Shown here in pieces: positions 2,195-39,846 of a stretch of 64,000 nt of DNA. How positions within the stretch are numbered: position 1 is the first letter of the stretch; each line of letters opens with the position of its first letter. This stretch comes from Aphanomyces cochlioides (lineage: Eukaryota > Oomycota > Saprolegniomycetes > Saprolegniales > Verrucalvaceae), in contig JAHQRK010000036.1 of the NCBI GenBank assembly GCA_019828595.1, forward strand, positions 1-64,000, in the 5' to 3' direction. The notes under the pieces are model-generated. The model was given only the letters and a program-made list of their open reading frames with translations, did not search any database and was not told the DNA's origin. The translations under genes were made by a program, and so were the position numbers.

Positions 2195-2407
2195 TGTTGT
2201 TGTCTTGGGTAAAATCAAAAGTGAGTCTTGGAGAATTGTTTTGAGATTCTCACTGAACTTATTCTCAGTTGCGACACTTGAGTCAGGCACGATTTGATTG
2301 GGCAGTGAAATGTTTTGCGCGGATCGTGAGTGATGGTCGCCAGGATTCCCAATCAAAAATTCAGCTGGGATACCAAGTCAAGAATACAGCTGGGGCTTGT
2401 AATCAAA

Positions 2408-6517: not shown

Positions 6518-8975
6518 GGGAAGCGATCGTTGTGAGATCCGCTAGGTCGCCGTGAATTAAAGTAGGTTCGCTTGGGTGAAACATGACTTGATTGTGGAGA
6601 GTGATATCCAAATCGTTGCTTTCGTGTAGTTGAAGGATTTTTGTCATGATGTGACACATCGATTCTCCGTCGCCAGTGTACATGAATTCCATTCTGTTCC
6701 ATATGTGGAGGCCAAGGTCGGTGTACATCAGGAGTGACATGAGCGTTTCGGAGGATAGACTGCGTTTACCAAGGCGAGAGGGTAACGCTGTCACTGGACT
6801 TTTTGTTGAGGCCAAAATTGCCGCATCGCTATTGAAATATAGTGGAGCATGAACTGCCATCAATACTTCTGCAATGGCCAGCACTTCTTCGACTTCAACT
6901 CTGTTGAGGACGATGTCATCATCGGTGATGATTGCCTCGATGAGTGGGAGGTTGTTGACCATCTTCTGGTCACTGAACACCGAGATCACGTGGTCGTGAG
7001 TGATTGGAGTGCCGAATGTTGCCTCGTAGAGCTGACCAAAAGATTTTGTGCCACCACCAGACGCTCTTAGCCAACGATTAAGCAGTCGAAGACGAACAAA
7101 GTATTCGAAGCTGTCACGATTGGAGACAAAAATTTGGTGCAGTTGCAGTCCAAATTCGATTGGCGCACGTTCTAGATGGATGCAGATCGTGTCAACACGC
7201 CCGTCCGTAATCAATTTCAATAAGTTGAAGGAATCGTGCGCTAACGCTTCCTTAACTTGGGCCGGGATATGTTGTGGTGCGTTTTGAGCCTTGGTGTCAA
7301 GGTCGTTGAGCTCGGCAAGTATGGCATCGAGAGACTTCTCAAACCTTTGGATTGAGCCCTCGTGGGGTTTGATCCCGCTAATGAACTCTTCAGCGGCAAC
7401 GTGCACCTTGTCACCAGATTTGAGTGTCAGCTTTGGAACAATTACTTTGACAGTGGTGTTGCCAACTGTCGTTTCGTGTTCCTCGGGCTCAACATTAGCG
7501 CGTTCGTCCAGAGCCGCAAACATGTTCGGGGAGATCCAAGGACGATCAGGAGCTGGGATTGAGCCAGCGGAGATTGGGGTTTTCTTTCTTTTGCCTGTAG
7601 TTTGAACTTCAGTCCATTCCTTGTTGCTGTCTCGGGTCGTTTTCTGCCGTTTGGCAGTGGATGTCGAGACAGCGGCGTCTCCCCGTGGGCGGTGAGGGGT
7701 TGCGTGAAGTCCATGTTGGGTGGCGATTACATCGAGGTCAAGGCGCGCGAGCTTCTTGTCACGGTAAAACCATCCTTGACCAAACACGCGGAGGCACCGA
7801 CCCTTGAAAATGAATTCTTCAATTGATCGACCGTCATTGTGCATAGATTCGGGTATAGCTGTCCCTTCAAAATACAAGCGATAACGAGAGCTAGCCAAGC
7901 CAGTCGTCGAGGAAACTGTGGAGTATGAGCCCCACAAAAAGCGCGGCTCAAGCTTTGACATGATGCTGAACATGAGACGTTCTTCATCCTGTCCTTGGAG
8001 ACCAGATGGGATATCGATGAAATATCCATCAAGTATATGGGGCTCAGTCATGACAAATCTCTGAGAGCTGCCATCCTTTGCCACTTGGATCTTGAGAGAG
8101 ACTCCACGCAGCTTTTTAAGAGCATCTTCAGAGGCTATGCCCCACTTGAGAAGACGATTGGAGACATCTTTCTCGCACTTGATGACATCGACAAATGCAT
8201 CGTCCAAATCAAGCGCTTGGTTGTCAAACAATAGAGATGTCATTGCCTTGGAGATGTCGATGTATTTGGTGTATTGGCCAGTGGACATTTGTAGCCAGCC
8301 AACAACATCTCTGGGGGAATGTTTTTGGATGGGCAAAGTGTCGTCAAACGTGAGAGATCCTGTCGCGCGTTTTTGCAACAAGGACGCCAGCTCGGCCATA
8401 GTTGGTCGATAATGGCCGACGTCACTGTTCCGCTGAGCCTTGGCAGATTTAGCTCTCTGCTTGGCTTGGAATTCCCACACGCATTCGTTTGGCTTTTTGG
8501 TCGAGGTGTTCGACTCGGGTGGTATTGGCACGGAGCGTGTTGTAGCAGGAGGCGAGGCATCGATTTGAGCTTCAGGCTCCATTTCCACATCAACATTGGT
8601 GTCGCGAATCGATTGGTCTTCAGAGCGCGGCTCCAGCTCAGTGGCTTGAGTAATCGGTGGGGTATGTGGTTGGTTGTTGTTGGAGATATCCTCTATGTCT
8701 TCATCAGGCATCGGAGAAACATTATCCTTGTTGACAGTTTTGTCGCTGGTACGAGCGCTTGGTAATGGCACGCGACCACCGAGTGTAGCAAGACGTATGG
8801 GCGGTTGAGCAGCAGGCGGAGTTTTGTCGATGATTGAGTCAGGTTCATCGTCATCATCATCGTCAACAATCACCTCCATGATACTAGAAGCGTCCGAGGT
8901 ATTGCGAAAGGGAGAGGCAGAAAAAGCTGAGGGCTTGTGTGCATGAGCACGGCTGGAAGAGCGGGTAGTCGCCAT
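6510..8975 (-). CDS. Family A ORF1 protein, copy A1 (821 aa)
   Basis: This is the first ORF of the element and probably its nucleic-acid-binding particle protein; that role is inferred from position. Residues 1-165 are Ser/Pro-rich and acidic, with a run of six Asp near 38-43. Residues about 167-425 are strongly conserved with family B ORF1, including the stretches LTFDDTLPIQKHS, RYRLYFEGT and RCLRVFGQGW. A basic, NLS-like stretch (KRQK, GKRKKT) lies at about 442-466, then a second conserved block from PWISPNMFAALDE (about 479) to the end. No CCHC zinc knuckle is visible. The start is the ATG at 8975 with A at -3 and G at +4, about 50 nt from the element end. The stop overlaps the start of ORF2 by 8 nt. 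The frame is intact in all four A copies. Confidence 0.85.
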   Translation of the reverse strand: MATTRSSSRAHAHKPSAFSASPFRNTSDASSIMEVIVDDDDDDEPDSIIDKTPPAAQPPIRLATLGGRVPLPSARTSDKTVNKDNVSPMPDEDIEDISNNNQPHTPPITQATELEPRSEDQSIRDTNVDVEMEPEAQIDASPPATTRSVPIPPESNTSTKKPNECVWEFQAKQRAKSAKAQRNSDVGHYRPTMAELASLLQKRATGSLTFDDTLPIQKHSPRDVVGWLQMSTGQYTKYIDISKAMTSLLFDNQALDLDDAFVDVIKCEKDVSNRLLKWGIASEDALKKLRGVSLKIQVAKDGSSQRFVMTEPHILDGYFIDIPSGLQGQDEERLMFSIMSKLEPRFLWGSYSTVSSTTGLASSRYRLYFEGTAIPESMHNDGRSIEEFIFKGRCLRVFGQGWFYRDKKLARLDLDVIATQHGLHATPHRPRGDAAVSTSTAKRQKTTRDSNKEWTEVQTTGKRKKTPISAGSIPAPDRPWISPNMFAALDERANVEPEEHETTVGNTTVKVIVPKLTLKSGDKVHVAAEEFISGIKPHEGSIQRFEKSLDAILAELNDLDTKAQNAPQHIPAQVKEALAHDSFNLLKLITDGRVDTICIHLERAPIEFGLQLHQIFVSNRDSFEYFVRLRLLNRWLRASGGGTKSFGQLYEATFGTPITHDHVISVFSDQKMVNNLPLIEAIITDDDIVLNRVEVEEVLAIAEVLMAVHAPLYFNSDAAILASTKSPVTALPSRLGKRSLSSETLMSLLMYTDLGLHIWNRMEFMYTGDGESMCHIMTKILQLHESNDLDITLHNQVMFHPSEPTLIHGDLADLTTIASRG

Positions 8976-9025
8976 GTTGTCAGTTTTGGACAGTGGTACT
9001 GCGGGTAGCTGGCAAATTGGAAACT

Positions 9026-9133
9026 CCGGTCATAGCTCAGTTGGTAGAGCGTTTGACTGTAGTGGAAAGTTGTATTGGATTCAGTATGGCTTCAGAAATC
9101 AAATGGCCACCGGTTCGATTCCGGTTGACCGGA
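9026..9133 (+). tRNA. tRNA-Tyr (GTA), intron-containing (tRNA2)
   Basis: This is the standard copy. Exon 1 is 9026-9062 (acceptor CCGGTCA, D arm, anticodon stem TTTGA, loop with GTA at 9059-9061). The intron is 9063-9097 (35 nt). Exon 2 is 9098-9133 (stem TCAAA, T arm ACCGG-TTCGATT-CCGGT, acceptor TGACCGG, discriminator A). The spliced tRNA is 73 nt with all stems paired. C1-G72 and anticodon GTA are eukaryotic tRNA-Tyr features. The A box (TAGCTCAGTTGG) and B box (GGTTCGATTCC) are intact, so RNA polymerase III should transcribe it although its 5' flank is the 5' end of A1. Confidence 0.95.
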
Positions 9134-10219: not shown

Positions 10220-10327
10220 CCGGTCATAGCTCAGTTGGTAGAGCGTTTGACTGTAGTGGAAAGTTGTATTGGATTCAGTATGGCTTCAGAAATCAAATGG
10301 CCACCGGTTCGATTCCGGTTGACCGGA
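10220..10327 (+). tRNA. tRNA-Tyr (GTA), intron-containing (tRNA3)
   Basis: The sequence is identical in layout to the copy at 9026-9133, and the intron occupies 10257-10291. This is one of only two copies in the window (with tRNA4) whose natural 5' flank (GACGTATGTGT) is kept, so tRNA3-spacer-tRNA4 shows the uninvaded array unit. Start-to-start distance to tRNA4 is 1192 bp. Confidence 0.95.
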
Positions 10328-11411
10328 CTCTTTTTCACACTTTCATCTCCTTTCCTTCTCTTACCCTCTTTTTTCCACCTCTCTCTTCATCTTCACGACC
10401 TTTACACGTCCCAACATTTAGATTCATCACATTTACCTACACATACAACAACTACACACGATACAGTCTATTCCAATGCCACACAAACAAATCTACGCGT
10501 TTTCACCAGCATTCACGCGGCATGAGCCATCATTGCTCTGTCTTGTTTATTTCATGTGCAGGACACATTGGATGCACCCCAAAAGACATTACAATCAAGA
10601 GGAATCACATTCCCTTACATACGTTGTCGTGCCAGTATTTTTGTCGCTCGTCAATCTCTGACAAAAACTCCTCCACGTAGTAGCATAGAAGTGCCATTTT
10701 GAAGGTCCAGTGAGCATACATGCCCCACAGCTCCTACGTTTGCCTTTCGGATGTCTGTGACGGCTCAGTTCAAAGTAGTTCGGGGTTGACGTTTTAAGTG
10801 ATGCCTCGCTAATTCATTGATCGAAATGAACAACACGTTATTTAAACATGGTTGCTTCTTGGAGGATAAAACAGTTTATGTTGGTTGTCCAAAATGAACA
10901 GCCTCATACTTTCCAACCTCTGAATTGAGGTATAATCCCTTTGCAAAAACAAATCGCAACGACGTTTGGCTTCAACACAGAGAGAGGAGGAAAAAGAGTC
11001 TACCAATCGCACACGCATACATTCCGTTCTTGTTGTGTCGTTGTTTTAGTCACTCATATTTTGGCAAGTCATATATACATTCTTTTTGGGGGACACAGCA
11101 CGAGGATTCATCGTGCTAACTTGGTGCGTGCTGTGTGGCCACGGTGCGACGTTGGTACGGAGACTTCTCTACAACACTGCATGAGGCAGAGCGAAGAGCT
11201 TGGTAAAGGGTAAGAGTGTTTGTAAATAAGAAGGTGGATGGAATGCGATGTTGTAGATGAAATGGCAGAGACGAGTCTCTGAAAATGGGCTGGAAGATAG
11301 TGAGGACTATAAGAATACAGGGTGTAGGATGTGGTTGATGATGCCAGTTGGTAGTGTATGTAGATGACTAAAATAGTGTGTGAAAGGTCGGTGGCTGGAG
11401 GACGTATGTGT
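10328..11411. repeat. tRNA array spacer, type gamma
   Basis: This spacer lacks the TC insertion and has G in GTGTGTGAAAGG. It is the only spacer not touching a retrotransposon on either side and the best representative of the ancestral unit. No gene is recognised. Confidence 0.85.
10331..10335 (+). terminator. Pol III T-run terminator of tRNA3
   Basis: TTTTT starts 4 nt after the tRNA. This copy lacks one TC dinucleotide before the run. Confidence 0.7.
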
Positions 11412-11519
11412 CCGGTCATAGCTCAGTTGGTAGAGCGTTTGACTGTAGTGGAAAGTTGTATTGGATTCAGTATGGCTTCAGAAATCAAATGGCCACCGGT
11501 TCGATTCCGGTTGACCGGA
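11412..11519 (+). tRNA. tRNA-Tyr (GTA), intron-containing (tRNA4)
   Basis: This is a complete copy with its intron at 11449-11483 and its natural upstream spacer. The next tRNA position to the right (12606) has been split by insertion of A2. Confidence 0.95.
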
Positions 11520-12605
11520 CTCTCTTTTTCACACTTTCATCTCCTTTCCTTCTCTTACCCTCTTTTTTCCACCTCTCTCTTCATCTTCACGACCTTTACA
11601 CGTCCCAACATTTAGATTCATCACATTTACCTACACATACAACAACTACACACGATACAGTCTATTCCAATGCCACACAAACAAATCTACGCGTTTTCAC
11701 CAGCATTCACGCGGCATGAGCCATCATTGCTCTGTCTTGTTTATTTCATGTGCAGGACACATTGGATGCACCCCAAAAGACATTACAATCAAGAGGAATC
11801 ACATTCCCTTACATACGTTGTCGTGCCAGTATTTTTGTCGCTCGTCAATCTCTGACAAAAACTCCTCCACGTAGTAGCATAGAAGTGCCATTTTGAAGGT
11901 CCAGTGAGCATACATGCCCCACAGCTCCTACGTTTGCCTTTCGGATGTCTGTGACGGCTCAGTTCAAAGTAGTTCGGGGTTGACGTTTTAAGTGATGCCT
12001 CGCTAATTCATTGATCGAAATGAACAACACGTTATTTAAACATGGTTGCTTCTTGGAGGATAAAACAGTTTATGTTGGTTGTCCAAAATGAACAGCCTCA
12101 TACTTTCCAACCTCTGAATTGAGGTATAATCCCTTTGCAAAAACAAATCGCAACGACGTTTGGCTTCAACACAGAGAGAGGAGGAAAAGAGTCTACCAAT
12201 CGCACACGCATACATTCCGTTCTTGTTGTGTCGTTGTTTTAGTCACTCATATTTTGGCAAGTCATATATACATTCTTTTTGGGGGGACACAGCACGAGGA
12301 TTCATCGTGCTAACTTGGTGCGTGCTGTGTGGCCACGGTGCGACGTTGGTACGGAGACTTCTCTACAACACTGCATGAGGCAGAGCGAAGAGCTTGGTAA
12401 AGGGTAAGAGTGTTTGTAAATAAGAAGGTGGATGGAATGCGATGTTGTAGATGAAATGGCAGAGACGAGTCTCTGAAAATGGGCTGGAAGATAGTGAGGA
12501 CTATAAGAATACAGGGTGTAGGATGTGGTTGATGATGCCAGTTGGTAGTGTATGTAGATGACTAAAATAGTGTGTAAAAGGTCGGTGGCTGGAGGACGTA
12601 TGTGT
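11520..12605. repeat. tRNA array spacer, type beta
   Basis: This spacer has no TC insertion but has A in GTGTGTAAAAGG near 12576. This combination occurs in all three spacers ending directly at the left side of an A element (before A2, A3 and A4). No gene is recognised. Confidence 0.85.
11525..11529 (+). terminator. Pol III T-run terminator of tRNA4
   Basis: TTTTT lies 5 nt after the tRNA 3' end. Confidence 0.7.
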
Positions 12606-12619
12606 CCGGTCATAGCTCA
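12606..12619 (+). repeat. Left target-site duplication (tRNA-Tyr bases 1-14) of A2
   Basis: CCGGTCATAGCTCA is tRNA bases C1-A14 cut off by the insertion; the same 14 bp opens tRNA5 at 20747 on the far side. The preceding T also matches, so the duplication is 14-15 bp. Confidence 0.92.
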
Positions 12620-12637
12620 ATGTCAATGGGGAGTCTA

Positions 12638-12679
12638 TTTGTAGTTAATGTAAACTACAAACTAATATTGCCCGAAGGC
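12638..12679 (-). other. Family A 3'-tail RNA hairpins (A2)
   Basis: On the element strand there is a GCC-TTCG-GGC hairpin with a UUCG tetraloop, followed by a 9-bp perfect stem (TTTGTAGTT/AACTACAAA) with a 6-nt loop. The terminal CTCCCCATTGACAT follows. Confidence 0.7.
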
Positions 12680-12714
12680 TCATCCCATTTCCAACTGCTA
12701 GGCTGAATTGGTAA

Positions 12715-13911
12715 TCAATTTGGCTTTTCGTTTTCTTGATTCGCTTCGACGTTGGGACTTCGATTTCTTCGGTGTTTGTAAGCTAACACGGCGAATATGT
12801 CGGATAAAACTGACTCTTGGCATCTGACCCAGGGGTATACATTTTCATTGTCTTGGATCATACATAGACTTCGGTCTATGCAGCGCTTGTATCGCTTGGC
12901 GAGGACCCAGCAATGGGATGTTGAATCAGTGACAGAAACAACCAAGAATTCTCCGTCAGGCTCATCCAATATCGCTCTACAGATATCACGAATTGGATCA
13001 CCCACCGATTGCTTGAGCAGTTGACGGGAGAATATGGCGTCGTTGTAGTGGAATCCATGTGTGTATGCCAGCTTGAGAAAATCATGCATCTTGGAAGGGG
13101 GAATGCCCGCGTCTTGAGGAACTCCATGGGCCTCTTTGAAACCCGAAATGACTTCTTCGCTGAGCTCAAAATTGGAGACATTCAAATTGGTAGCAACGAT
13201 TCGGATTGCAGCCGCAAGACAAGATTTGTCACTGTTGTTGCCAATTTCTAGCCACAGAGGATCCATCGCTCGAAATTCAGCAAGCGTTGGGGCGAGACCA
13301 GTGTTCGTGAGGAAGTGGGCTCCAGCTTGTCGCCATCGTTGGTACATCGCCACGGCTTCTTGACACCCGCTGAGGTCTTTTTCGTCGAACCAGTCTTTGT
13401 TGAGTCCATCCGGGCGTTGAAACTTCCAGTTGACTTGGTATTGAATAGTTGAAATTCGATTTCGCATTGATGCCACTTCGCGGTGGTCATCGATAAACAA
13501 CACTTCATCGATGTCATCATCGTCGGTTGGAATTCGCAGAGTGCGTGGGCGGTTGGTTGGGGCATCAGCCGTTGTCGCATTCGTTTGTGGCCTGGCTGGA
13601 ACAGAAACATCGTCCAATAGATCCATGAGGGATGGTAGCGGAGATCCATTGTCATTGCCCAAGGGGTCAAATTCGCGGGTGCTCGAGTTCAAAATGGACA
13701 TATCAGGAGTAAATTGGTGTTCTTCAGTTGTAACTGGACTTGAAGGACGAGTGTCGGATGATTGCGTCATAGGTACAGAAATCTCAACTCCATCCACTCC
13801 CTCAAGAGTAATCCCTGGAGACATCGAGCTCCCCACACCTCGTGTAGTTATGGGTCTCGACGTCTGCGCGGGGAGTACGCTATCGGCAGTGAAAATCGTT
13901 GAAGCTTCCAT
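12715..13911 (-). CDS. Family A ORF3, copy A2 (altered C-terminus)
   Basis: This matches the ORF3 of A3 through MIQDNENVYP, including the chromodomain-like segment and both peptidase-like motifs. One G fewer in a G-run near 12832 then shifts the frame and gives a different tail ending NQENEKPN in place of the basic tail of A3/A4. First in-frame ATG at 13911. Confidence 0.6.
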   Translation of the reverse strand: MEASTIFTADSVLPAQTSRPITTRGVGSSMSPGITLEGVDGVEISVPMTQSSDTRPSSPVTTEEHQFTPDMSILNSSTREFDPLGNDNGSPLPSLMDLLDDVSVPARPQTNATTADAPTNRPRTLRIPTDDDDIDEVLFIDDHREVASMRNRISTIQYQVNWKFQRPDGLNKDWFDEKDLSGCQEAVAMYQRWRQAGAHFLTNTGLAPTLAEFRAMDPLWLEIGNNSDKSCLAAAIRIVATNLNVSNFELSEEVISGFKEAHGVPQDAGIPPSKMHDFLKLAYTHGFHYNDAIFSRQLLKQSVGDPIRDICRAILDEPDGEFLVVSVTDSTSHCWVLAKRYKRCIDRSLCMIQDNENVYPWVRCQESVLSDIFAVLAYKHRRNRSPNVEANQENEKPN

Positions 13912-14124
13912 TGTTGTTGTCTTGGGTAAAATCAAAAGTGAGTCTTGGAGAATTGTTTTGAGATTCTCACTGAACTTATTCTCAGTTGCGACACTTGAGT
14001 CAGGCACGATTTGATTGGGCAGTGAAATGTTTTGCGCGGATCGTGAGTGATGGTCGCCAGGATTCCCAATCAAAAATTCAGCTGGGATACCAAGTCAAGA
14101 ATACAGCTGGGGCTTGTAATCAAA

Positions 14125-17100
14125 TTACTGGTGTTCAACTCGAAAAGACATGGGATATTTTTCGAATAGCTCGTTGTATCCAGCTTGAGAGAAAAGGACT
14201 GAGACCGCTTCGATGATGTTTCGATAGTCGAAGTCGTCAGGCGAGAGCAAACGAATTGTTCGCCTGATGGAAGCTGTCCAACTGACAAATATAATCTCGT
14301 TCCATAGTAAAATCGGTAGAGGCCTTTTGCCATCGAACTTGGTTGCATTTCTTTGAGTCCATAAGGAGTACGTGATGGAAGCACAAAGGAGGGACCATAA
14401 TTTGAATAATGCGTCATGCAGGTGTTTTCCTCGCGTATTGGTCTTGAAGCGACTGATATTCGTGGTGGTTGCCCAATCAAACTTAACACCATAAGCACTC
14501 CATGCTCGCTCTTGGAACATCCAAACTTGATGTACATGATGACATGTATGGAAGGCATGATGAAAAGTCTCAACATCCGAGCAATCTTCATAGACACAAC
14601 AAATAGCGTCAGGGTTTTGGATCTGCATATAGGAAAACCTCGAGTTGACGGGTAACATCTTCATGTGCAATCGAAACCATACATCGCCTTGAACAGGTGG
14701 AGGTAGATTACACACAGTACGAATGAGACGGATATACTTTGCTATGTCTTTGTCAGTTCTTGTCGTAGTCTTCATAGGATGTATAGCTTCAGTCTGGGGG
14801 CGTGGTAAGCTAAATGCACCACGTTTTTCTTGGGCCACGACTCGAAAGGTAAATCAGCATCCTTGATTCTGGCTGTAAACGGATGTTGACAAGTCGGGAC
14901 ATTAGGCAGTGGCGACCCTTGCCGAATGTCAAACGATCGAACAACTTTGTCGAAGATTCGTGTGAGTTGATTGTAAATGTCGGTTGTGCGGGGCAATGTG
15001 GCAAAGTCCATGACTCCGTCCTGGTTTAGACAAACTTGGGCAGCTGGATTGTTCGACGACATTCGGTTCACGAACATGGTCTCTGTTGGCCAAGCGCCAT
15101 GTGGGGTCAGGAAATCCTTCAGGCATCTGAGACCATTTTTGGCCCCGTGGCGGCACCAGAGACGCATGTCTTCATCTTTCACGACATTTGCTAACATCTT
15201 AGCAGAGCCGAAGTGCATTGCGTCGTAGGCTGTGAGCCATACCGGGAGGTTCAGTACCGTGTCGAGATTTGGAGGCACGCCGATTCGCTTACTCATGTCT
15301 GTGGCTGACCAATGTTTCCAAGTATCAAGCCACAGTGGATGGAGCTCGCGAAGCAAAAGCCACTTGGAGCTTGCATTTGGGTAGTATGAAAGAAAATCGA
15401 ATGGGTGACTGTCTCGGAATAACTGATGTATTGTGCGGCTAAATTGTCGCTGTACAAGTTTCTTCCACACCAGGATTTCACCAGGAGAATCGGCAGACAT
15501 AAAGAGCTGTAAACGAAGAAGGCGTTGTGTTCGCAGCCTCGATGCAATGTGGGGGATTCCCAAGCCTAAAGGCTTGTCGTACTGCCACCTTCTATGGATT
15601 GAGGGACGGTAACTCTCATCGAGCTGGGTCTTGCGGCAAAGTATGAACTTGTTTAACATTTGTTGCCACGTAACGACCATAGCAGGAGGCACAGGTACAA
15701 CGGCTGTTACATGCCACAACATAGATAGCAACATCGTGGAGGCAATAAGCTTTCGGCCCTGCAATGTCCTTGCTCGTTTACCCCATAGTTGAAAGGACGA
15801 GATGAATTTGTCGTTGAGTTTTTGAAGTTGGGAGTCAGCCGAAAGTCGATGGCCAAAGAGAATACCAAGATATTTCGTACACTGACCAGTTGGTACGATA
15901 TTGAGCAAACCATCTGCTTCGATGTCTTCTTGATCGAGATGGTCGTTGAGAACCAAGGTCATGCACTTGGAACGATTCAGACGGGCCCCTGAAGCCGTGC
16001 AAAACTCTTCCACAATTGCCATTTGCTCCACAGCAGATTGCAGCGAGTTTGATAACAACGTCGAGTCGTCGGCAAAGAATATACTCGTAATAACTGAGTC
16101 GTGGGGAGAGCGATTCCAAGATGTGGGGACGCTCGGAGCATCTCACCAAGAGGTTCTAGGTATAGGACGAACAGTAGGCATGATAAAGGACAGCCTTGTT
16201 TGACGCCTCGGGTAGGTCGGATCTTAGGGCCAAGCTCGCCATTGAAGATGATCTGGACCAAAGGTGAGTCGTACAAAAGAGCTACCCACGCAATGAAACC
16301 ATCACCAGTGTTGACTTCTCTCAGCACATCAAGCATAAATTCTCGATCCACCATGTCGTACGCTTTCGAAAAGTCAAGGAATGTTGCATAGTAGTCGTGA
16401 TCTTCGTTGGTGCAAAACGTTTGCAAAGTTTGCACAAGCAGGACGTGGTCATGCAGCCGTCGTCCTGGGACAAAGCCAGCTTGACTTGGGTGAATGAGAT
16501 GAGGAGCTACTGTAGCCAGGCGATAAGCGAGGGCACGGGATAGTATCTTCACCTCCACTGACATGAGTGCAATAGGTCGGTAGTTTCCAGGATCGCCTCG
16601 ATCACCAGCTTTGAAGAGCAGAGCCACAGCACTACGCCTTTGTTGAAGGAGTAGTTTACCGTGGTGGTGAAGTTGGTAGTTGAAGACCCTGACCAGGATT
16701 TCGGAAAAGCCTCGGGTGCTACTTGGAAGAAGGCCGCTGGCCATCCATCAGGACCAGGAGACTTGTTTGGACTCATTGTCTTGAGAGCACTACACAGCTC
16801 GGCTGCTGTGATAGGTCTGTCTAGCTCCTCGCGTTGCTCATCATTGAGTTTGCGGGAGATAAACCGTATGACAGCCCTCCGCCTCGCCCGGTTTAGCCGA
16901 GGTTGTTCGCCACGAGTGGTAGTCATTATTGCCTTCCAATGGGCAGTGAATCTCTCTTTGATAGTGGTAGGATCAGACACGGGAATGCCATCGACGTTGA
17001 CCGTCGTGATAGGAACCTTGAGTCCTTGTGGCCTTCGAAAGAAGTGGCTCGTACCGCGTTCGTTGATATTTGCATGAAAATCGAATTGCTGATCCATGCG

Positions 17101-18237
17101 GTATTGGCGATATTCGATTCTTGCGTTTTCCAGCGCCAACCGAGTAGCATCAACGGCAGCCTCGTCGAGCAAGCCAGCTTCGTATGATCGTTGTGCAGAT
17201 ATATGTCTCAGTTTTAGGCTTTTGAGCTCGTGTTGCATGGATTGGAGGTGGTGGCGATGACATTGTTGTAAACGTCGTTTGATTCGCTTAAGCCACCCAT
17301 ACCAGACGGCTCCCATGTTTGTCGATTCGTCCGCACGCATCTCAGAGAGGAGGTGTGATGCCTCTTCTCGTATGGCTTTGATGACGAGCGGGTCTTTGAG
17401 TAGCTCTCTCGGCAGCCTCCAGTAGCCACGGGTCGTGGGTGTATGACTTGTAGAGAGAACGACAGTGTGCTCCAAGTGATCTCCGGCAAAGCTGTTAGTG
17501 GCATATTTTGAGCTTTGGTAGGATTGGGCAACTAAATCTTGGTCAATGAACCAGTAGTCCAGACGATTGCTTCGTCCTGGACCGCTTGCCAGTCTTTCGT
17601 GAGGGTGGTGTAGGCGCCACGCGTCGATGACTCCTAGTTGTGACAGCCAGGCAAGACATTCGACTTTTCCAAAGGTGTGATCTTGCCGTGGTTTGGAAGC
17701 ATCGAGGTGTTCGTTGACAGGAAGGTTAAAATCTCCCCCAACCAGGTGTACACTGTTAGCTTCAAAAGCGCGAGGGAGACTGTCAAAGAAACTAGCCCGA
17801 TGTTGAGGGGTAACTGGCGCGTAAATGTTGTGGATGTAGACTGGGGTTTCATCCCAGTACGTTTTGATCACAATATAACGGCCAGGGATATCGTGTTGTG
17901 ATAAGTGCACCAGGCTTGAGAATCCAGGCATCGATTCGTGAAAGTATGATGCAACGCCACATCGACGGTTGTTCAAATTGTCCGTGCGGGTTGTTCGTAA
18001 GTCGTTGGTAAAAAGTTTGTACTTGCTAACACCCACTTCGTTGTCGAGGTGAGTGTGGAAAGTGTCAAGATGTTTTGCGTTGTTGAGTTTCGTTTCTTGA
18101 AAGAGAACAGCTTGTGTCGGTTTCCGAAGACGCCGTGCAACAAGATGTCCGTTTTCTTTCAGCCCATTGAGGTTGCTCGTCGTCACTTCAAGTATGGGGA
18201 GCTTGACAAAATGACCAGCCGCGACCACTTTAGCCAC
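14125..18237 (-). pseudogene. Family A ORF2 (APE endonuclease-RT), copy A2, frameshifted
   Basis: The endonuclease and the start of RT read from 18237. A private one-base loss near 16703 (CGGAAAAG where A3 has CGGAGAAAG) ends this frame after PGPDGWPAAFFQVAP. The next frame continues to the shared break near 16103 before FADD. The thumb and C-terminal part follow in the 428-aa frame 14772-16058. A third break near 14798 (G5 where A3 has G6) splits off the last part (14125-14838), which carries the C-x4-C-x7-H-x4-C zinc motif. Confidence 0.85.
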
Positions 18238-20695
18238 GGGAAGCGATCGTTGTGAGATCCGCTAGGTCGCCGTGAATTAAAGTAGGTTCGCTTGGGTGAA
18301 ACATGACTTGATTGTGGAGAGTGATATCCAAATCGTTGCTTTCGTGTAGTTGAAGGATTTTTGTCATGATGTGACACATCGATTCTCCGTCGCCAGTGTA
18401 CATGAATTCCATTCTGTTCCATATGTGGAGGCCAAGGTCGGTGTACATCAGGAGTGACATGAGCGTTTCGGAGGATAGACTGCGTTTACCAAGGCGAGAG
18501 GGTAACGCTGTCACTGGACTTTTTGTTGAGGCCAAAATTGCCGCATCGCTATTGAAATATAGTGGAGCATGAACTGCCATCAATACTTCTGCAATGGCCA
18601 GCACTTCTTCGACTTCAACTCTGTTGAGGACGATGTCATCATCGGTGATGATTGCCTCGATGAGTGGGAGGTTGTTGACCATCTTCTGGTCACTGAACAC
18701 CGAGATCACGTGGTCGTGAGTGATTGGAGTGCCGAATGTTGCCTCGTAGAGCTGACCAAAAGATTTTGTGCCACCACCAGACGCTCTTAGCCAACGATTA
18801 AGCAGTCGAAGACGAACAAAGTATTCGAAGCTGTCACGATTGGAGACAAAAATTTGGTGCAGTTGCAGTCCAAATTCGATTGGCGCACGTTCTAGATGGA
18901 TGCAGATCGTGTCAACACGCCCGTCCGTAATCAATTTCAATAAGTTGAAGGAATCGTGCGCTAACGCTTCCTTAACTTGGGCCGGGATATGTTGTGGTGC
19001 GTTTTGAGCCTTGGTGTCAAGGTCGTTGAGCTCGGCAAGTATGGCATCGAGAGACTTCTCAAACCTTTGGATTGAGCCCTCGTGGGGTTTGATCCCGCTA
19101 ATGAACTCTTCAGCGGCAACGTGCACCTTGTCACCAGATTTGAGTGTCAGCTTTGGAACAATTACTTTGACAGTGGTGTTGCCAACTGTCGTTTCGTGTT
19201 CCTCGGGCTCAACATTAGCGCGTTCGTCCAGAGCCGCAAACATGTTCGGGGAGATCCAAGGACGATCAGGAGCTGGGATTGAGCCAGCGGAGATTGGGGT
19301 TTTCTTTCTTTTGCCTGTAGTTTGAACTTCAGTCCATTCCTTGTTGCTGTCTCGGGTCGTTTTCTGCCGTTTGGCAGTGGATGTCGAGACAGCGGCGTCT
19401 CCCCGTGGGCGGTGAGGGGTTGCGTGAAGTCCATGTTGGGTGGCGATTACATCGAGGTCAAGGCGCGCGAGCTTCTTGTCACGGTAAAACCATCCTTGAC
19501 CAAACACGCGGAGGCACCGACCCTTGAAAATGAATTCTTCAATTGATCGACCGTCATTGTGCATAGATTCGGGTATAGCTGTCCCTTCAAAATACAAGCG
19601 ATAACGAGAGCTAGCCAAGCCAGTCGTCGAGGAAACTGTGGAGTATGAGCCCCACAAAAAGCGCGGCTCAAGCTTTGACATGATGCTGAACATGAGACGT
19701 TCTTCATCCTGTCCTTGGAGACCAGATGGGATATCGATGAAATATCCATCAAGTATATGGGGCTCAGTCATGACAAATCTCTGAGAGCTGCCATCCTTTG
19801 CCACTTGGATCTTGAGAGAGACTCCACGCAGCTTTTTAAGAGCATCTTCAGAGGCTATGCCCCACTTGAGAAGACGATTGGAGACATCTTTCTCGCACTT
19901 GATGACATCGACAAATGCATCGTCCAAATCAAGCGCTTGGTTGTCAAACAATAGAGATGTCATTGCCTTGGAGATGTCGATGTATTTGGTGTATTGGCCA
20001 GTGGACATTTGTAGCCAGCCAACAACATCTCTGGGGGAATGTTTTTGGATGGGCAAAGTGTCGTCAAACGTGAGAGATCCTGTCGCGCGTTTTTGCAACA
20101 AGGACGCCAGCTCGGCCATAGTTGGTCGATAATGGCCGACGTCACTGTTCCGCTGAGCCTTGGCAGATTTAGCTCTCTGCTTGGCTTGGAATTCCCACAC
20201 GCATTCGTTTGGCTTTTTGGTCGAGGTGTTCGACTCGGGTGGTATTGGCACGGAGCGTGTTGTAGCAGGAGGCGAGGCATCGATTTGAGCTTCAGGCTCC
20301 ATTTCCACATCAACATTGGTGTCGCGAATCGATTGGTCTTCAGAGCGCGGCTCCAGCTCAGTGGCTTGAGTAATCGGTGGGGTATGTGGTTGGTTGTTGT
20401 TGGAGATATCCTCTATGTCTTCATCAGGCATCGGAGAAACATTATCCTTGTTGACAGTTTTGTCGCTGGTACGAGCGCTTGGTAATGGCACGCGACCACC
20501 GAGTGTAGCAAGACGTATGGGCGGTTGAGCAGCAGGCGGAGTTTTGTCGATGATTGAGTCAGGTTCATCGTCATCATCATCGTCAACAATCACCTCCATG
20601 ATACTAGAAGCGTCCGAGGTATTGCGAAAGGGAGAGGCAGAAAAAGCTGAGGGCTTGTGTGCATGAGCACGGCTGGAAGAGCGGGTAGTCGCCAT
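18230..20695 (-). CDS. Family A ORF1 protein, copy A2 (821 aa)
   Basis: The 821-aa product matches A1 ORF1 residue for residue as read. The ATG at 20695 lies 51 nt inside the element 5' end, and the stop overlaps the ORF2 frame by 8 nt. Function is unassigned beyond being the likely ORF1 RNA/particle protein. Confidence 0.85.
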   Translation of the reverse strand: MATTRSSSRAHAHKPSAFSASPFRNTSDASSIMEVIVDDDDDDEPDSIIDKTPPAAQPPIRLATLGGRVPLPSARTSDKTVNKDNVSPMPDEDIEDISNNNQPHTPPITQATELEPRSEDQSIRDTNVDVEMEPEAQIDASPPATTRSVPIPPESNTSTKKPNECVWEFQAKQRAKSAKAQRNSDVGHYRPTMAELASLLQKRATGSLTFDDTLPIQKHSPRDVVGWLQMSTGQYTKYIDISKAMTSLLFDNQALDLDDAFVDVIKCEKDVSNRLLKWGIASEDALKKLRGVSLKIQVAKDGSSQRFVMTEPHILDGYFIDIPSGLQGQDEERLMFSIMSKLEPRFLWGSYSTVSSTTGLASSRYRLYFEGTAIPESMHNDGRSIEEFIFKGRCLRVFGQGWFYRDKKLARLDLDVIATQHGLHATPHRPRGDAAVSTSTAKRQKTTRDSNKEWTEVQTTGKRKKTPISAGSIPAPDRPWISPNMFAALDERANVEPEEHETTVGNTTVKVIVPKLTLKSGDKVHVAAEEFISGIKPHEGSIQRFEKSLDAILAELNDLDTKAQNAPQHIPAQVKEALAHDSFNLLKLITDGRVDTICIHLERAPIEFGLQLHQIFVSNRDSFEYFVRLRLLNRWLRASGGGTKSFGQLYEATFGTPITHDHVISVFSDQKMVNNLPLIEAIITDDDIVLNRVEVEEVLAIAEVLMAVHAPLYFNSDAAILASTKSPVTALPSRLGKRSLSSETLMSLLMYTDLGLHIWNRMEFMYTGDGESMCHIMTKILQLHESNDLDITLHNQVMFHPSEPTLIHGDLADLTTIASRG

Positions 20696-20746
20696 GTTGT
20701 CAGTTTTGGACAGTGGTACTGCGGGGTAGCTGGCAAATTGGAAACT

Positions 20747-20854
20747 CCGGTCATAGCTCAGTTGGTAGAGCGTTTGACTGTAGTGGAAAGTTGTATTGGA
20801 TTCAGTATGGCTTCAGAAATCAAATGGCCACCGGTTCGATTCCGGTTGACCGGA
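20747..20854 (+). tRNA. tRNA-Tyr (GTA), intron-containing (tRNA5)
   Basis: This complete gene was regenerated on the right side of A2 by the target duplication. Its 5' flank is the terminal sequence of A2 (GGAAACT). All stems and both internal promoter boxes are intact; intron 20784-20818. Confidence 0.95.
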
Positions 20855-21942: not shown

Positions 21943-21956
21943 CCGGTCATAGCTCA
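21943..21956 (+). repeat. Left target-site duplication (tRNA-Tyr bases 1-14) of B1
   Basis: CCGGTCATAGCTCA, the same cut point as family A; the partner copy opens tRNA6 at 29282. Confidence 0.92.
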
Positions 21957-21972
21957 CTGCAATGGGGAGGTA

Positions 21973-22022
21973 TATTAATAGACTTTCAATATCTACTAAT
22001 ACTAATATTGCCTACTAACGGC
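21973..22022 (-). other. Family B 3'-tail RNA hairpins (B1)
   Basis: On the element strand there is a GCC-GTTAGTA-GGC hairpin, then a 10-bp stem TATTAGTAGA/TCTATTAATA (one G-U pair) with a 9-nt loop, then terminal CTCCCCATTGCAG. The architecture is that of family A with different stem sequence. Confidence 0.7.
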
Positions 22023-22113
22023 TCATCCCACTTCCAAATGCTTCAGCAGATTTTCTACTTTGGGCTTTGGAGTACAGCGATTTTTGACTTGTTGAATAAA
22101 TACTTGGGGCTTG

Positions 22114-25100
22114 TTAATTTGGGGCTGAAGGTTGGAGCGCGAGCAAAGTCGGGTACTTGGCTACCAGTGGGCGATAGACAGGTTGTCTATGCAAAGTATT
22201 GATTGCTGATATTGCTTCCACTCGTTGAGGGCTGTCAACTTCTTGGAGGCGAAGCCATCTGCGGATCGATGCATGCCATCGGATGAAGCTGACTTCTTGC
22301 CAAATTTCTGGCGGAGGCGGCTTCTTCGATTCGAACTTGGCGGCGTTGTGCGTTGTCCAAATATAGTGAAGGTTGGAAGCACACAGAAGAGCCCAGAGCA
22401 CAAACAGTATGTCTTGAAGCTGGCTACCGCGTTCGTTGACTTGAAAGCGGTCGATGTTGGTGATGGCAGTCCAATCGAAATTGACACCGAAGCATCGCCA
22501 AGCGGTCGCGTGAAAACGCCAAAGGGGATACACGCGAGAGCAGGTGTGGAAGGCGTGGTGTTGGTTCTCCGGTGCGTCGCAATTGGTATAGACACAGCAA
22601 ATTACGTCTGGCTGCTGAGGTTGCAAGTAGAACAAGCGCGAGTTGACAGGCAGCATGTTGAACAACAGTCGAAACCAAACGTCGCCATGGAGGGGAGGCG
22701 GCCAACGGCATGTTTTGCGGATGAGTCGCACGTAGGTCGCAATATCTTGTTGCTCGACGCGGGACGATGTCGCCACTGGGTGCGGTTTTCCATCCGAAGG
22801 GGCGTGATGCGCCAAACGTGATACGAGTCGCTTGGGCCAACGCTCGAAGGATAGCAATTGATCTTTGAAAAGTGCCTTGAAAGGGTGACTTGTTGTATCG
22901 ATATCGGTCAAAGCAGTTCCAGTTCGAACGCCAGACGTGCGGAGGACTTGGTCGAATATCTTGGTGAGGTGGCTATAAACTTGACCAGCACGTTCGGGTG
23001 CTGCAAATCCCATCGCGCCGTTCGCTTGTAACGTCACTTGTGCCGCACGGTTGTTGGATGACAGTCGATCAATAAACGCAGCTCTTGTAGGCCATGTCCC
23101 TTGCCGTGTCAAGAAGTCTTTGAGGCAGTGGAAACCGTTTTGAGACGCATGTCTACACCATCGACGACACAGAGCAGTCTTCACGACATTTGATGTAGCA
23201 CCCGCAGGACCAACTTGCAGAGCGGGGTAGGATGTCAGCCACACGGGGAGGTTCAAAAGTTCTTCGAGGCTTGGTGGCGAAGCGGTTCGCTTGGCCATAG
23301 GTGTGGCGGCCCATTGATGCCAAATGTCGTGCCAAAGAGGATGCAGCTCCCACAAAAACAACCACTTGGAGCTGTGGTTGGGGAAGTACGTGAGAAAGTC
23401 GAACGGGTGGGTGTCGCGATACAGCTTGTTCATGACACGGGAAAATTGTCTCTTGACAAGCAACTTCCATGGGGCAAATGTGTTGGGTGAATTGGGCTGC
23501 ATCAAGAGTTGGAGCCGCAGCAGTCGCTGAGTCCGAAGCTTCGAAGCCACATGCGGAATACCGAGGCCGAGTTTTTGATCGAACTGCCACTTGCGGCAAA
23601 TAGTTGAGCGATGATGGTCGGTGATTTGCGTCTTCCGACCAAGGATGTACTTGTTGACCATTCTTTGCCAAACGGCAACCATCGTTGGAGGCACATACAC
23701 TGCAGCCGTGACATGCCATAACAACGACAACAACATGGTCGATACGATGAGTTTGCGGCCTTGGATGGTTCGCGCACGACTTCCCCACGTTTGAAACGCA
23801 GCCAGAAACTTGTCGTTCAGTTGCTGGACTTGAAAATCGCGCGGCAGTCGGTGGCCAAAGAGAATACCAAGGTATTTCACTGGCTTCTCGCTCGGCAAGA
23901 CGTTCAAGAGGCCACCATCGTCGATGTCTTCGATATCGAGATTGTTGTTGAGCGCCAAAGTCATGCACTTGGCAACGTTGAGACGAGCTCCAGACACAGA
24001 GCAAAAGTCTTCGACAATTGCCATTTGCTCGACCGCCGCTTGGAGGGATGACGAGAGTAGAGTCGTGTCGTCGGCAAAGTAGATGCTCGTCAGTGAGTCT
24101 CCATTTGGAAGGGGAATACCAAAATCAGGAGATCCGCGTAGCATTTCGCCGAGTGGCTCGAGGTAAAGTACGAAGAGCATGCACGATAGGGGGCAACCTT
24201 GCTTGACTCCGCGGGTAGGCCGTATGGTAGGGCCAAGACCGTCGTTGAAAATGATCTGGACCAGAGGCGTATTGTAAAGCAACTGAACCCAAGACACAAA
24301 TGTGGGACCGATGTTCATCTCCTTGAGTACGTCGAAGAGAAAGCCTTGGTCAACCATATCGTATGCCTTGGAAAAGTCGAGAAACGTCGCGTAGTAGTCG
24401 TGGTCTTCATTGGTACAGAAAGTCTGCAATGCTTGTACCAGCATCACGTGGTCGTGCAAGCGACGGCCAGGGACAAAACCAGCTTGGCTTGGGTGAGCGA
24501 GGTATGGGGCAACTTGTGCAAGACGGTAGGCCAGCGCCCGCGATAGAATCTTGACTTCAACCGACATGAGAGTAATCGGCCGATAGTTGCCAGGGTCGCC
24601 TCTGTCTCCAGCCTTGAACAAGAGCGCCACTGCACTTCGGCGTTGTTGGAGCAGGAGGTGACCGTGATGGGTGAGTTGGTAGTTGAACACCTTGAGCAGG
24701 ATTTGGGCGAATACGTCCGGGGAGACTTGAAAGAAAGCTGCAGGCCAGCCGTCTGAACCAGGAGACTTGTTCGGGTTCATAGACTTGAGCGCGCCGCACA
24801 GGTCTTCCGCCGTGAGAGGACTTTCCAGAGCGTCGCGCTGTTCTTGAGTGAGACGTCGAGTAATGGCTCGAATGATAGCTCGGCGACGGGCCCGATTCAA
24901 CGGTGGTTGGTCTCTTGGAGTGACCATGATGTTTTTCCAATGAGACGTAAAACCAGCCTTGACTTCAGACGGGTCAGTCGACGTTACACCGTTGATTGTC
25001 ACGGACGAGAGCGGCACTTTGATCCCCTTGGGTCGACGAAAAAAGTGACTGGTACCTCGCTCGTTGACGTTGGCGTGAAAGTCGAATTGCTGATCCAGGT

Positions 25101-26268
25101 TGAACTGTCGGTACTCGCTGCGGGCAGTGTCAAGGGCTTGACGGGCGGTATTAACAATGGATGTCTCAACGAGTCCCATGTCGAATGCTCGGCGGGAAGT
25201 AAGCCACTTCATCTTGAGGCTGTTGAGTGTGTACTTCATCGAGTCAATGTACTGGCGATGACTGACTTGGAGACGCTTCTTCATTCTCTTCAACCAGCCG
25301 TACCACTTTGCGCCAAAGTTTTGAGTGTCGTCTGCGCGCATCTCGTCCAAAAGTTGATTGGCTTCGGCCTTGATCGCTGCGACTACTTGAGGGTTCTTTA
25401 AGAGCTCACGGGGGAGGCGCCAGTAACTTCGGTCGGGAGCTCGCTGCTCGCAGGAGAGGACCACTTTGTGTTCCATGTGGTCGCCTGCAAAGCTGCTTGG
25501 GGAATAGCTTGAACGTGCGTACGTTTGAGCGACGATATCTTGGTCCACAAACAGGTAGTCGAGGCGGTTGCTTCGACCAGGGCCGCTGTAAACGCGCTCG
25601 TTGGGGTGGTGCATCCTCCACGCATCGATAACACCAAGTGCTGAAAGCCAGGCAATGCATTCCGCCTTACCAGCGTTGTGGTCTTGGCGAGGTCGAGTCG
25701 CGTCCAGATGCTCTTCCAGGGGTAAGTTGAAATCGCCTCCGACAAAGTGAATGCTGTCGTCTTCAAAGTCGCGAGGCAGATCGTCGAAAAACGGTGCTCG
25801 AGAGTGAGCGATAACCGGGGCATAGACGTTGTGAAAGTACACAGGAACGCCGTCCCACTGAGTTCGAACAACCATGTATCTTCCAGGTCGGTCATGGGTG
25901 GTCAAGTGTTGCAGGTCGAGGAATCCAGGCATGGATCCATGGAAATACGATGCCACACCGCAGCGCCGATTGTTGAGTGAGTCGACGCGATCAGTGCGGA
26001 GATCGTTGGTGAAGAGCTTGTATTTGCCAACGCCTACTTCGTTGTTGAGGTGGAGTTGGAAGGTTTCGAGATGTTTGATGTTATTGATTTTGGTTTCTTG
26101 AAAGAAAACGGCTTGGGTCGGAATTTGGAGTCGCCGCGCCACAAGATGTCCGTTGTCTTTCAGCCCATTGAGGTTGGCAGTGGTCAGTTCGAGTATGGGG
26201 AACTTGGTGAAGAGACCGGCCGCGACCACCTTAGCCACGGAACGCGACAGACGTTGCGTTCGCAACAT
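22114..26268 (-). CDS. Family B ORF2: APE-type endonuclease and reverse transcriptase (1384 aa)
   Basis: This enzyme would nick the tRNA gene and copy element RNA onto the break (target-primed reverse transcription). Endonuclease motifs: NLNG near 32-35, QE at 57-58, GGDFN at 177-181, SNRLDY at 233-238, GDH at 262-264. Reverse transcriptase: NKSPGSDGW near 500-508, FKAGDRGDPGNYRPI near 551-565, FLDFSKAYD (catalytic Asp near 631), GVKQGCPLSC near 687-696, FADD at 731-734 and KYLGILFG near 800. A C-terminal C-x4-C-x7-H-x4-C motif (CVYTNC...HAFHTC) matches the zinc-binding region common in L1-type ORF2 proteins. No RNase H is seen. The ATG at 26268 overlaps the end of ORF1 by 38 nt in a shifted frame, which suggests termination-reinitiation. 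All key residues are present, so the protein could be active. Confidence 0.92.
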   Translation of the reverse strand: MLRTQRLSRSVAKVVAAGLFTKFPILELTTANLNGLKDNGHLVARRLQIPTQAVFFQETKINNIKHLETFQLHLNNEVGVGKYKLFTNDLRTDRVDSLNNRRCGVASYFHGSMPGFLDLQHLTTHDRPGRYMVVRTQWDGVPVYFHNVYAPVIAHSRAPFFDDLPRDFEDDSIHFVGGDFNLPLEEHLDATRPRQDHNAGKAECIAWLSALGVIDAWRMHHPNERVYSGPGRSNRLDYLFVDQDIVAQTYARSSYSPSSFAGDHMEHKVVLSCEQRAPDRSYWRLPRELLKNPQVVAAIKAEANQLLDEMRADDTQNFGAKWYGWLKRMKKRLQVSHRQYIDSMKYTLNSLKMKWLTSRRAFDMGLVETSIVNTARQALDTARSEYRQFNLDQQFDFHANVNERGTSHFFRRPKGIKVPLSSVTINGVTSTDPSEVKAGFTSHWKNIMVTPRDQPPLNRARRRAIIRAITRRLTQEQRDALESPLTAEDLCGALKSMNPNKSPGSDGWPAAFFQVSPDVFAQILLKVFNYQLTHHGHLLLQQRRSAVALLFKAGDRGDPGNYRPITLMSVEVKILSRALAYRLAQVAPYLAHPSQAGFVPGRRLHDHVMLVQALQTFCTNEDHDYYATFLDFSKAYDMVDQGFLFDVLKEMNIGPTFVSWVQLLYNTPLVQIIFNDGLGPTIRPTRGVKQGCPLSCMLFVLYLEPLGEMLRGSPDFGIPLPNGDSLTSIYFADDTTLLSSSLQAAVEQMAIVEDFCSVSGARLNVAKCMTLALNNNLDIEDIDDGGLLNVLPSEKPVKYLGILFGHRLPRDFQVQQLNDKFLAAFQTWGSRARTIQGRKLIVSTMLLSLLWHVTAAVYVPPTMVAVWQRMVNKYILGRKTQITDHHRSTICRKWQFDQKLGLGIPHVASKLRTQRLLRLQLLMQPNSPNTFAPWKLLVKRQFSRVMNKLYRDTHPFDFLTYFPNHSSKWLFLWELHPLWHDIWHQWAATPMAKRTASPPSLEELLNLPVWLTSYPALQVGPAGATSNVVKTALCRRWCRHASQNGFHCLKDFLTRQGTWPTRAAFIDRLSSNNRAAQVTLQANGAMGFAAPERAGQVYSHLTKIFDQVLRTSGVRTGTALTDIDTTSHPFKALFKDQLLSFERWPKRLVSRLAHHAPSDGKPHPVATSSRVEQQDIATYVRLIRKTCRWPPPLHGDVWFRLLFNMLPVNSRLFYLQPQQPDVICCVYTNCDAPENQHHAFHTCSRVYPLWRFHATAWRCFGVNFDWTAITNIDRFQVNERGSQLQDILFVLWALLCASNLHYIWTTHNAAKFESKKPPPPEIWQEVSFIRWHASIRRWLRLQEVDSPQRVEAISAINTLHRQPVYRPLVAKYPTLLALQPSAPN

Positions 26269-29229: not shown

Positions 29230-29281
29230 ATTGTCAGATAGCGTAGAGTGGTACTGCGGGGTAGCTGGCAAATTGGAAACT

Positions 29282-29389
29282 CCGGTCATAGCTCAGTTGG
29301 TAGAGCGTTTGACTGTAGTGGAAAGTTGTATTGGATTCAGTATGGCTTCAGAAATCAAATGGCCACCGGTTCGATTCCGGTTGACCGGA
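29282..29389 (+). tRNA. tRNA-Tyr (GTA), intron-containing (tRNA6)
   Basis: Complete gene regenerated on the right side of B1; intron 29319-29353. Its 5' flank is the B1 terminus, identical over 35 bp to that of family A. Confidence 0.95.
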
Positions 29390-30476: not shown

Positions 30477-30490
30477 CCGGTCATAGCTCA
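30477..30490 (+). repeat. Left target-site duplication (tRNA-Tyr bases 1-14) of A3
   Basis: CCGGTCATAGCTCA; the partner is at 38621. Confidence 0.92.
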
Positions 30491-30508
30491 ATGTCAATGG
30501 GGAGTCTA

Positions 30509-30550
30509 TTTGTAGTTAATGTAAACTACAAACTAATATTGCCCGAAGGC
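30509..30550 (-). other. Family A 3'-tail RNA hairpins (A3)
   Basis: The UUCG tetraloop hairpin is at 30541-30550. The 9-bp stem is 30509-30517 paired with 30524-30532, loop 30518-30523. Confidence 0.7.
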
Positions 30551-30568
30551 TCATCCCATTTCCAACTG

Positions 30569-31783: not shown

Positions 31784-31996
31784 TGTTGTTGTCTTGGGTA
31801 AAATCAAAAGTGAGTCTTGGAGAATTGTTTTGAGATTCTCACTGAACTTATTCTCAGTTGCGACACTTGAGTCAGGCACGATTTGATTGGGCAGTGAAAT
31901 GTTTTGCGCGGATCGTGAGTGATGGTCGCCAGGATTCCCAATCAAAAATTCAGCTGGGATACCAAGTCAAGAATACAGCTGGGGCTTGTAATCAAA

Positions 31997-38569: not shown

Positions 38570-38585
38570 GTTGTCAGTTTTGGAC

Positions 38586-39830: not shown

Positions 39831-39846
39831 CTGCAATGGGGAGGTA

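Follow-up and report, generated by a model that had tools for sequence, protein, structure and literature searches.

L1-like retrotransposons very probably enter the A box of many tRNA genes and rebuild them in Aphanomyces cochlioides

Introduction

A retrotransposon of about 8 kb that lies inside a tRNA-Tyr gene, with a complete copy of that gene at its end, raises the question of how the element entered without destroying its host and whether tRNA-Tyr is its specific target. Such an element occurs in bases 1-64000 of contig JAHQRK010000036.1 (C30) of the oomycete Aphanomyces cochlioides, a stretch of 64,000 bases referred to below as the window; the genome comprises 76.2 Mb in 94 contigs, to which labels such as C2, C13, C30 and C42 refer, and L numbers denote fetched loci. 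An earlier note, made from this DNA alone, had described a stub, an element and a complete 108-bp tRNA gene in succession, and all three are present where it had placed them (12606 to 20854; Table 1). Judging from sequence comparison, we consider it very probable that an L1-like lineage of long interspersed nuclear elements (LINEs), with two open reading frames (ORFs) and an endonuclease of the apurinic/apyrimidinic (APE) type, inserts into many tRNA genes at the A box, each gene being rebuilt in the process.

Results and Discussion

Target sites across the genome

Two LINE families occur in the window, family A (8.13 kb) and family B (7.3 kb), which share about 65% base identity over 5.2 kb, lie antisense to the tRNA and have the same entry point between tRNA bases 14 and 15. 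The genome-wide tabulation of junctions that the earlier note had proposed as a check showed that 200 of the 203 exact 3' ends of A stand directly after the heptamer TRGCTCA (tRNA bases 8-14), 151 after TAGCTCA and 49 after TGGCTCA, and that the same heptamer directly precedes 220 of the 224 3' ends of B. Most copies of both families are thus found at one site of a multicopy sequence, by which target-specific non-long terminal repeat (non-LTR) retrotransposons are recognized. The Tyr 14-mer CCGGTCATAGCTCA precedes only 25 of the 203 A ends, other tRNA types being entered, so that tRNA-Tyr as the specific target had to be rejected; copies at unrelated sites, which the note had named as grounds for refutation, were not encountered, the sampled copies occupying the equivalent position in other tRNA genes or in tRNA-like repeats.

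All 29 left flanks of A that were read (hand-picked from listed places) end in TAGCTCA or TGGCTCA, and 75 full 5' ends of A or B, this end being common to both families, stand before GCTCAGTTGG in Tyr, Phe, Asn and Met contexts, one of them with TTGCTCA. Host genes of the sampled A copies are those for Phe, Asn, Met, Lys, Ala and Thr, and three copies read at both ends each match a single tRNA (Lys-TTT, Ala-AGC and Lys-CTT). Among 31 right flanks of A/B and of the family D introduced below, ARAGORN identified 18 tRNAs, which were Phe, Asn, Met, Lys-TTT, Lys-CTT, Ala, Tyr, Thr-CGT, Thr-AGT and Cys; for Ala, two calls are doubtful in that the gene is cut by something else. The 13 flanks without a call consist of tRNA-like repeats, of stubs that precede another element and of genes disrupted by other insertions. 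Ten guessed A 5' junctions gave an element 5' end in four cases (L068, L070, L072 and L074, of which L072 continues into the 3' end of another element and not into a tRNA) and no element 5' end at L067, L069, L071, L073, L075 and L076.

A further family, D, was found at C42:1-7703 with a more distant reverse transcriptase, and it uses the same A-box site in the tRNA types used by A, as well as in Cys genes and tRNA-like repeats. For 49 of its 52 exact 5' ends the end is located 5-12 bases before GCTCA, and the three remaining ends, when fetched, were also in tRNA genes: two, in which the anticodon was read by eye as CCA, have a longer G-rich spacer before TAGCTCA, and the third is an Ala-like gene with TAGCGCA.

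Some neighboring observations concern the same position. The tRNA-like repeats that D occupies at L086 (C3), L088 (C4), L090 (C8) and L096 (C45) contain GGGGATAGCTCACTYGRTGAG and a B-box-like stretch, and they are probably tRNA-derived short interspersed nuclear elements. Another 3' end, GTGTACAATCGCGTATATT, follows TAGCTCA at L072 (C2:1109416-1109816), L089 (C8:1163745-1163945) and L103 (C23:3975470-3975670) and probably belongs to another family (E) using the same site. The site GGTCGTATAGCTCA on C89 and C47 was initially judged non-tRNA by its left flank and taken as an off-target insertion, which was abandoned because A, B and D all enter there, suggesting a tRNA gene; of the 5' junctions guessed for its right-hand side, L067 and L108 contained no element end and L109 showed a different stub.

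Junctions and target duplication

At the join the elements have a fixed 3' end without poly(A) and are often 5'-truncated, and the usual layout is that of an element flanked by a short stub at one end and by a whole tRNA gene at the other. The duplication had been put at 14 bp in the earlier note; the stub does comprise 14 bases of the tRNA, but the T preceding base 1 of the empty site is kept in nine of ten distinct 5'-truncated junctions of the Tyr arrays, which makes a 15-bp duplication, and 14-17 bases separate the element end from tRNA base 15 in full-length A and B copies. Truncated 5' ends and target duplications of variable length at fixed 3' ends are the marks of a LINE.

The stub covaries with the host gene, being TGGCTCA at Met and TAGCTCA elsewhere, and is therefore not carried by the element. 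This bears on an explanation in which the element RNA, by read-through into the antisense tRNA stub, carries the 14-mer and gains its precision by annealing to the nick, for which other target-specific LINEs are invoked as an analogy. The stub always stands directly behind the 3' end, so that a read-through RNA would end complementary to the nicked strand, and some assistance through the common TRGCTCA might be given in this way; but one family enters tRNA types that differ in bases 1-7 and the stub matches the new host gene, and we regard such annealing as an improbable source of the precision.

Independent insertion, re-entry and array copying

The Tyr-array stretches fetched from C30, C42 and C13 contain 83 tRNA-Tyr target sites, of which 36 are occupied and 47 continue into a gene with base 15; the latter comprise 18 with a full A/B 5' end at base 1, nine with a truncated or extended 5' end, 19 in a native unit and one at a contig start. 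Native units precede 25 of the occupied sites and another element precedes 11, so that rebuilt genes have been entered again, and with this the account given by the earlier note, in which a non-LTR element enters after base 14 and its duplication rebuilds a gene that can be re-entered, was borne out. Three consecutive B copies without a unit between them extend from 50924 to C30:72901.

The same arrays hold ten distinct 5'-truncation junctions, the tenth (at 40376) being the one with a changed base 1, and these junctions together with the many tRNA types entered indicate repeated independent insertion. Part of the copies have a different origin, since the window's three full-length A copies (12620, 30491 and 41584) are 99.94-99.99% identical and have a common left-flank variant, which is best explained by array duplication of a single insertion; a truncated pair of 474 and 435 bp likewise recurs on C42 and C13. 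Both facts would be expected if one or a few old insertions had merely been multiplied by unequal crossing-over, with no active targeting. As a full account this is very improbable, because the exact site is common to the ten distinct truncation junctions, to three families and to many tRNA types, and because stacks without an intervening unit need re-entry; it is contradicted as a whole and holds for part of the copies.

Collapsed or mis-joined repeats in the assembly could also be suspected of creating the junctions, as the array runs up to contig ends (C30 starts and C13 ends within it) and the analysis used the assembly only. The same junction is found hundreds of times on many contigs, beside truncated copies of differing length, and we consider such an artefact extremely unlikely.

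Element proteins and a possible promoter

The reverse transcriptase in ORF2 of B is of the non-LTR type (Pfam RVT_1, E 3.5e-34; human L1 ORF2p, E 7.3e-57), and its closest solved relative is human L1 ORF2p, with 196 bits in comparison to 90 for R2. At the N-terminus of ORF2 stands an endonuclease of the APE type, which resembles the solved endonucleases of L1 (E 4.7e-05 to 3.9e-04), and the region near the ORF2 end has conserved C, C, H and C positions. ORF2 of A is open only in pieces among the window copies. ORF1 gave no Pfam match, and a structural model of it is partly similar to an RNA recognition motif, which is suggestive only. Relatives of the ORF1 and ORF2 proteins were found in A. 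astaci, A. invadans, A. stellatus and Thraustotheca clavata, and more distant ones in Globisporangium and Phytophthora. A search with ORF2 of B gave no match among viral contigs and four weak matches among genome contigs, all in bacterial bins.

A third frame of A (30569-31966, and present also in other A copies), for which no counterpart was seen in B, matches the A. cochlioides proteins AC1031_016288 and AC1031_020784 at NCBI. In P0085, a named protein from this genome, part of the frame is joined to the apparent end of ORF2 of B, which by its sequence suggests exchange between the families. Folding of the 3' RNA gave z values of -2.9 for A, -2.0 for B and +0.6 for C, and a joint A/B fold was weak; nothing is claimed from the folds.

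The first bases of A, B and D follow the pattern A-N-T-Y-Y, 2 nt, MWTTTNC. In the cited passage of PMC3599244 the oomycete block of initiator and flanking promoter region (INR+FPR) is YCAYTYY, 2 nt, MWTTTNC, and transcription begins close to its A. Given this resemblance, transcription may start at the element's first base, which is a lead and not a result.

Points against the proposed insertion and the role of Pol III factors

Several observations weigh against the insertion and rebuilding proposed here. Three of the 203 A 3' ends and four of the 224 B 3' ends lie outside the set that follows TRGCTCA. The earlier note had held that every insertion leaves a stub and a whole gene, and this stands as the general layout with exceptions: the gene at 40376 is not cleanly rebuilt (base 1 is changed from C to G), the partial A at ~1018-9025 is without 3' end and stub, and at the array edge, C30:109912 to ~111650, tRNA bases 1-31 are gone and the gene is not rebuilt. 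The Pfam scores for Exo_endo_phos (0.0005 for A and 0.021 for B) are both below the curated cut-off. With respect to the start site, A and B carry G where the fourth base of the INR is Y, and the two bases preceding the presumed start are supplied by the tRNA side. Many copies are array duplicates, so that the counts are not independent events.

Finally, the other TRGCTCA sites in the fetched Tyr-array stretches are occupied in none of 76 cases, in comparison to 36 of the 83 tRNA sites. Forty-eight of the 76 are one spacer site of the array unit, TGGCTCA. Its second base does not account for the lack of entry, since Met genes, which also have TGGCTCA, are frequent hosts. The heptamer alone is therefore insufficient, and flanking bases or the state of the tRNA gene must matter.

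This difference in occupancy favors an explanation in which RNA polymerase III (Pol III) factors on tRNA genes do the main targeting, as proposed for Dictyostelium TRE5-A, with the endonuclease adding a local preference, and so does the entry of D into tRNA-like repeats that retain the A box and the B-box-like GGTTCGATAC. Against it, insertion is base-exact, whereas the tethered TRE5 and TRE3 are described in the cited passage of PMC5911963 as spreading over windows outside the gene, and among the ends read, entry occurs only in genes with TRGCTCA, rarely TTGCTCA or TAGCGCA. We hold main targeting by Pol III factors to be unlikely, though a good deal less so than the rivals above.

Proposed mechanism and its implications

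Base-exact entry by an L1-like LINE would proceed as follows. ORF2p would nick the tRNA-sense strand after TRGCTCA (A14), the cDNA would be primed at the nick by target-primed reverse transcription, and the second strand would be cut 14-15 nt upstream of the nick. The duplication of about 14-15 bp seen at the junctions restores bases 1-14 before base 15, so that the gene is whole again; it would still be transcribed by Pol III, while a promoter built into the element would start its RNA at the first element base. Genes restored in this way are entered again, the elements stacking with the latest next to the gene, and array amplification then multiplies elements along with tRNA units. Since the heptamer alone does not suffice, a wider sequence readout or Pol III factors would also guide insertion.

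A more general proposal, which we put forward tentatively and hold to be somewhat short of an even chance, is that the A box is a general self-healing landing site at which each insertion rebuilds a Pol III gene. Any tRNA gene or tRNA-like repeat with TRGCTCA could then host an ordered stack, target choice would rest both on exact base recognition in the A box and on a further signal marking real tRNA genes, and other LINE families might use a second tRNA position. If this is true, the tRNA arrays of these oomycetes would be a LINE habitat comparable to the ribosomal DNA of insects. An L1-like LINE that enters many tRNA genes base-exactly without breaking them would make it testable how strict endonuclease specificity is acquired and how mobile DNA persists in compact genomes. 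Such elements can multiply without destroying the genes they enter. The stacks record the order of insertion, and the arrays show tRNA amplification and element spread feeding each other. The A box is common to nearly all eukaryotes, and a self-repairing landing site is also of interest for harmless DNA insertion.

Comparison with known systems

Dewa of zebrafish is an APE-type element of the Tx1 clade, and SLACS, which occupies a fixed site in a tandemly repeated small-RNA gene, has another target and a restriction-like endonuclease. The passages of the papers cited below show that tRNA-gene-specific non-LTR elements as such are already known, and the remark in the earlier note that its reader knew of no described family was too narrow in this respect: NeSL-1_TV (tRNA-Pro), LIN15_SM (tRNA-Arg) and LIN25_SM (tRNA-Glu) are in print (PMC4640811), where spliced-leader elements such as SLACS are also named. 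These NeSL-type elements are likewise non-LTR and tRNA-gene-specific, but according to the same passage they are related to NeSL, a clade with a restriction-like endonuclease, and are listed for one tRNA type each. Such elements are marked by a C-terminal restriction-like endonuclease and the lack of an APE domain, whereas the Aphanomyces elements carry the APE type at the ORF2 N-terminus and enter many tRNA types. Dewa is target-specific at tRNA genes too, but in the tRNA-Leu spacer and not inside the gene (PMC3706591). The dictyostelid TRE5, TRE3, NLTR-A and NLTR-B resemble the Aphanomyces elements in being of the L1 group, APE-type and inserted at many kinds of tRNA gene, yet they insert outside the gene over a window, 2-64 bp upstream or 40-150 bp downstream, in a manner linked to Pol III factors (PMC5911963), in contrast to entry inside the gene at base 14/15.

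Many lineages of the Dada transposons enter tRNA nucleotides 8-13 in the A box; in Perkinsus, where a Tyr family is among them, the site reads TAGCTC with AG after it (PMC8869645, PMC3706591). They differ in having a DDE transposase, a 6-7 bp duplication that does not rebuild the gene and mostly one tRNA type per family, in comparison to 14-17 bases and a reverse transcriptase here; Dada and the Aphanomyces LINEs reached the same heptamer independently. The comparison passages cited describe no LINE of the APE type with entry into many tRNA genes at the A box and restoration of these genes; searches of open-licence papers by title and abstract beginning listed none on such elements in Aphanomyces, the passages that term searches gave from PMC10886601 and PMC3747384 hold nothing on LINEs inside tRNA genes, and a Repbase or Dfam entry is possible.

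Layout of the window

The window is a tandem tRNA-Tyr array with a unit of ~1.195 kb (~1,195 bp) and one 108-bp tRNA-Tyr with an intron per unit. The Tyr 14-mer has 15 exact matches and one with a single mismatch in the window, where shuffles (n=100) gave a mean of 0.03. ARAGORN in bacterial mode made no tRNA calls, and with introns allowed it called one regenerated copy (L079) as tRNA-Tyr(GTA); an Rfam search restricted to 9000-30500 scored five tRNA genes. Long tandem arrays of tRNA genes have been published for Phytophthora infestans, and a supplementary legend there also names A. cochlioides (cited passage of PMC9584435).

Table 1. Coordinates of elements, stubs and tRNA-Tyr genes in the window.
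Feature	Position	Strand	Remarks
Family A copy	1018..9025	-	last ~85 bp and stub missing; fused to divergent unit
tRNA-Tyr gene	9026..9133	+	complete; adjoins 5' end of A copy 1018..9025
Two array units	10220..12605	+	element-free; empty sites at 10220 and 11412; native upstream sequence
Stub CCGGTCATAGCTCA	12606..12619	+	tRNA-Tyr bases 1-14; left of family A element
Family A	12620..20746	-	full length; frames interrupted; antisense to tRNA
tRNA-Tyr gene	20747..20854	+	regenerated, complete; 108 bp with intron, T run after; A box entry at base 14/15
tRNA-Tyr stub	21943..21956	+	left of family B
Family B	21957..29281	-	full length; ATG-started ORF1 of 972 aa (26231-29149), overlapping ORF2 of 1384 aa (22114-26268)
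tRNA-Tyr gene	29282..29389	+	regenerated, complete
tRNA-Tyr stub	30477..30490	+	
Family A	30491..38620	-	ORF1 frame 36104-38686 extends beyond element end
ORF2 of A copy 30491..38620	33850-36135, 31997-34015	-	two overlapping frames
Third frame of A copy 30491..38620	30569-31966	-	A only
tRNA-Tyr gene	38621..38728	+	regenerated, complete
tRNA-Tyr stub	39817..39830	+	
Family B copy	39831..40375	-	5'-truncated, 545 bp left
tRNA-Tyr gene	40376..40483	+	regenerated; base 1 is G, not C
tRNA-Tyr stub	41570..41583	+	
Family A	41584..49713	-	99.99% identical to copy at 30491
tRNA-Tyr gene	49714..49821	+	regenerated, complete
tRNA-Tyr stub	50910..50923	+	
Family B	50924..58221	-	next B directly adjoining (rebuilt gene re-entered)
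Stub	58222..58235	+	separates two stacked B elements
Family B	58236..64000	-	extends beyond window to C30:65561; then third B, then intact tRNA (C30:72902)

The first array unit (window 1-1017), which is joined to the A copy without a 3' end, is only ~94% identical to the other units. At the array edge on the same contig (C30:109898-111940, L013), a 3' end of family C is followed by a tRNA-Tyr remnant without bases 1-31. In addition, tRNA-Ala genes beside D are interrupted just after ...GCATGCGGAC or GCATGCGGGAC, on the 3' side of the anticodon stem, at L105 (C12:1022950-1023160), L111 (C22:20000-20990) and L110 (C24:122480-123480); the interrupting sequence has open frames in the tRNA sense and possibly represents further LINE families that use a second tRNA position.

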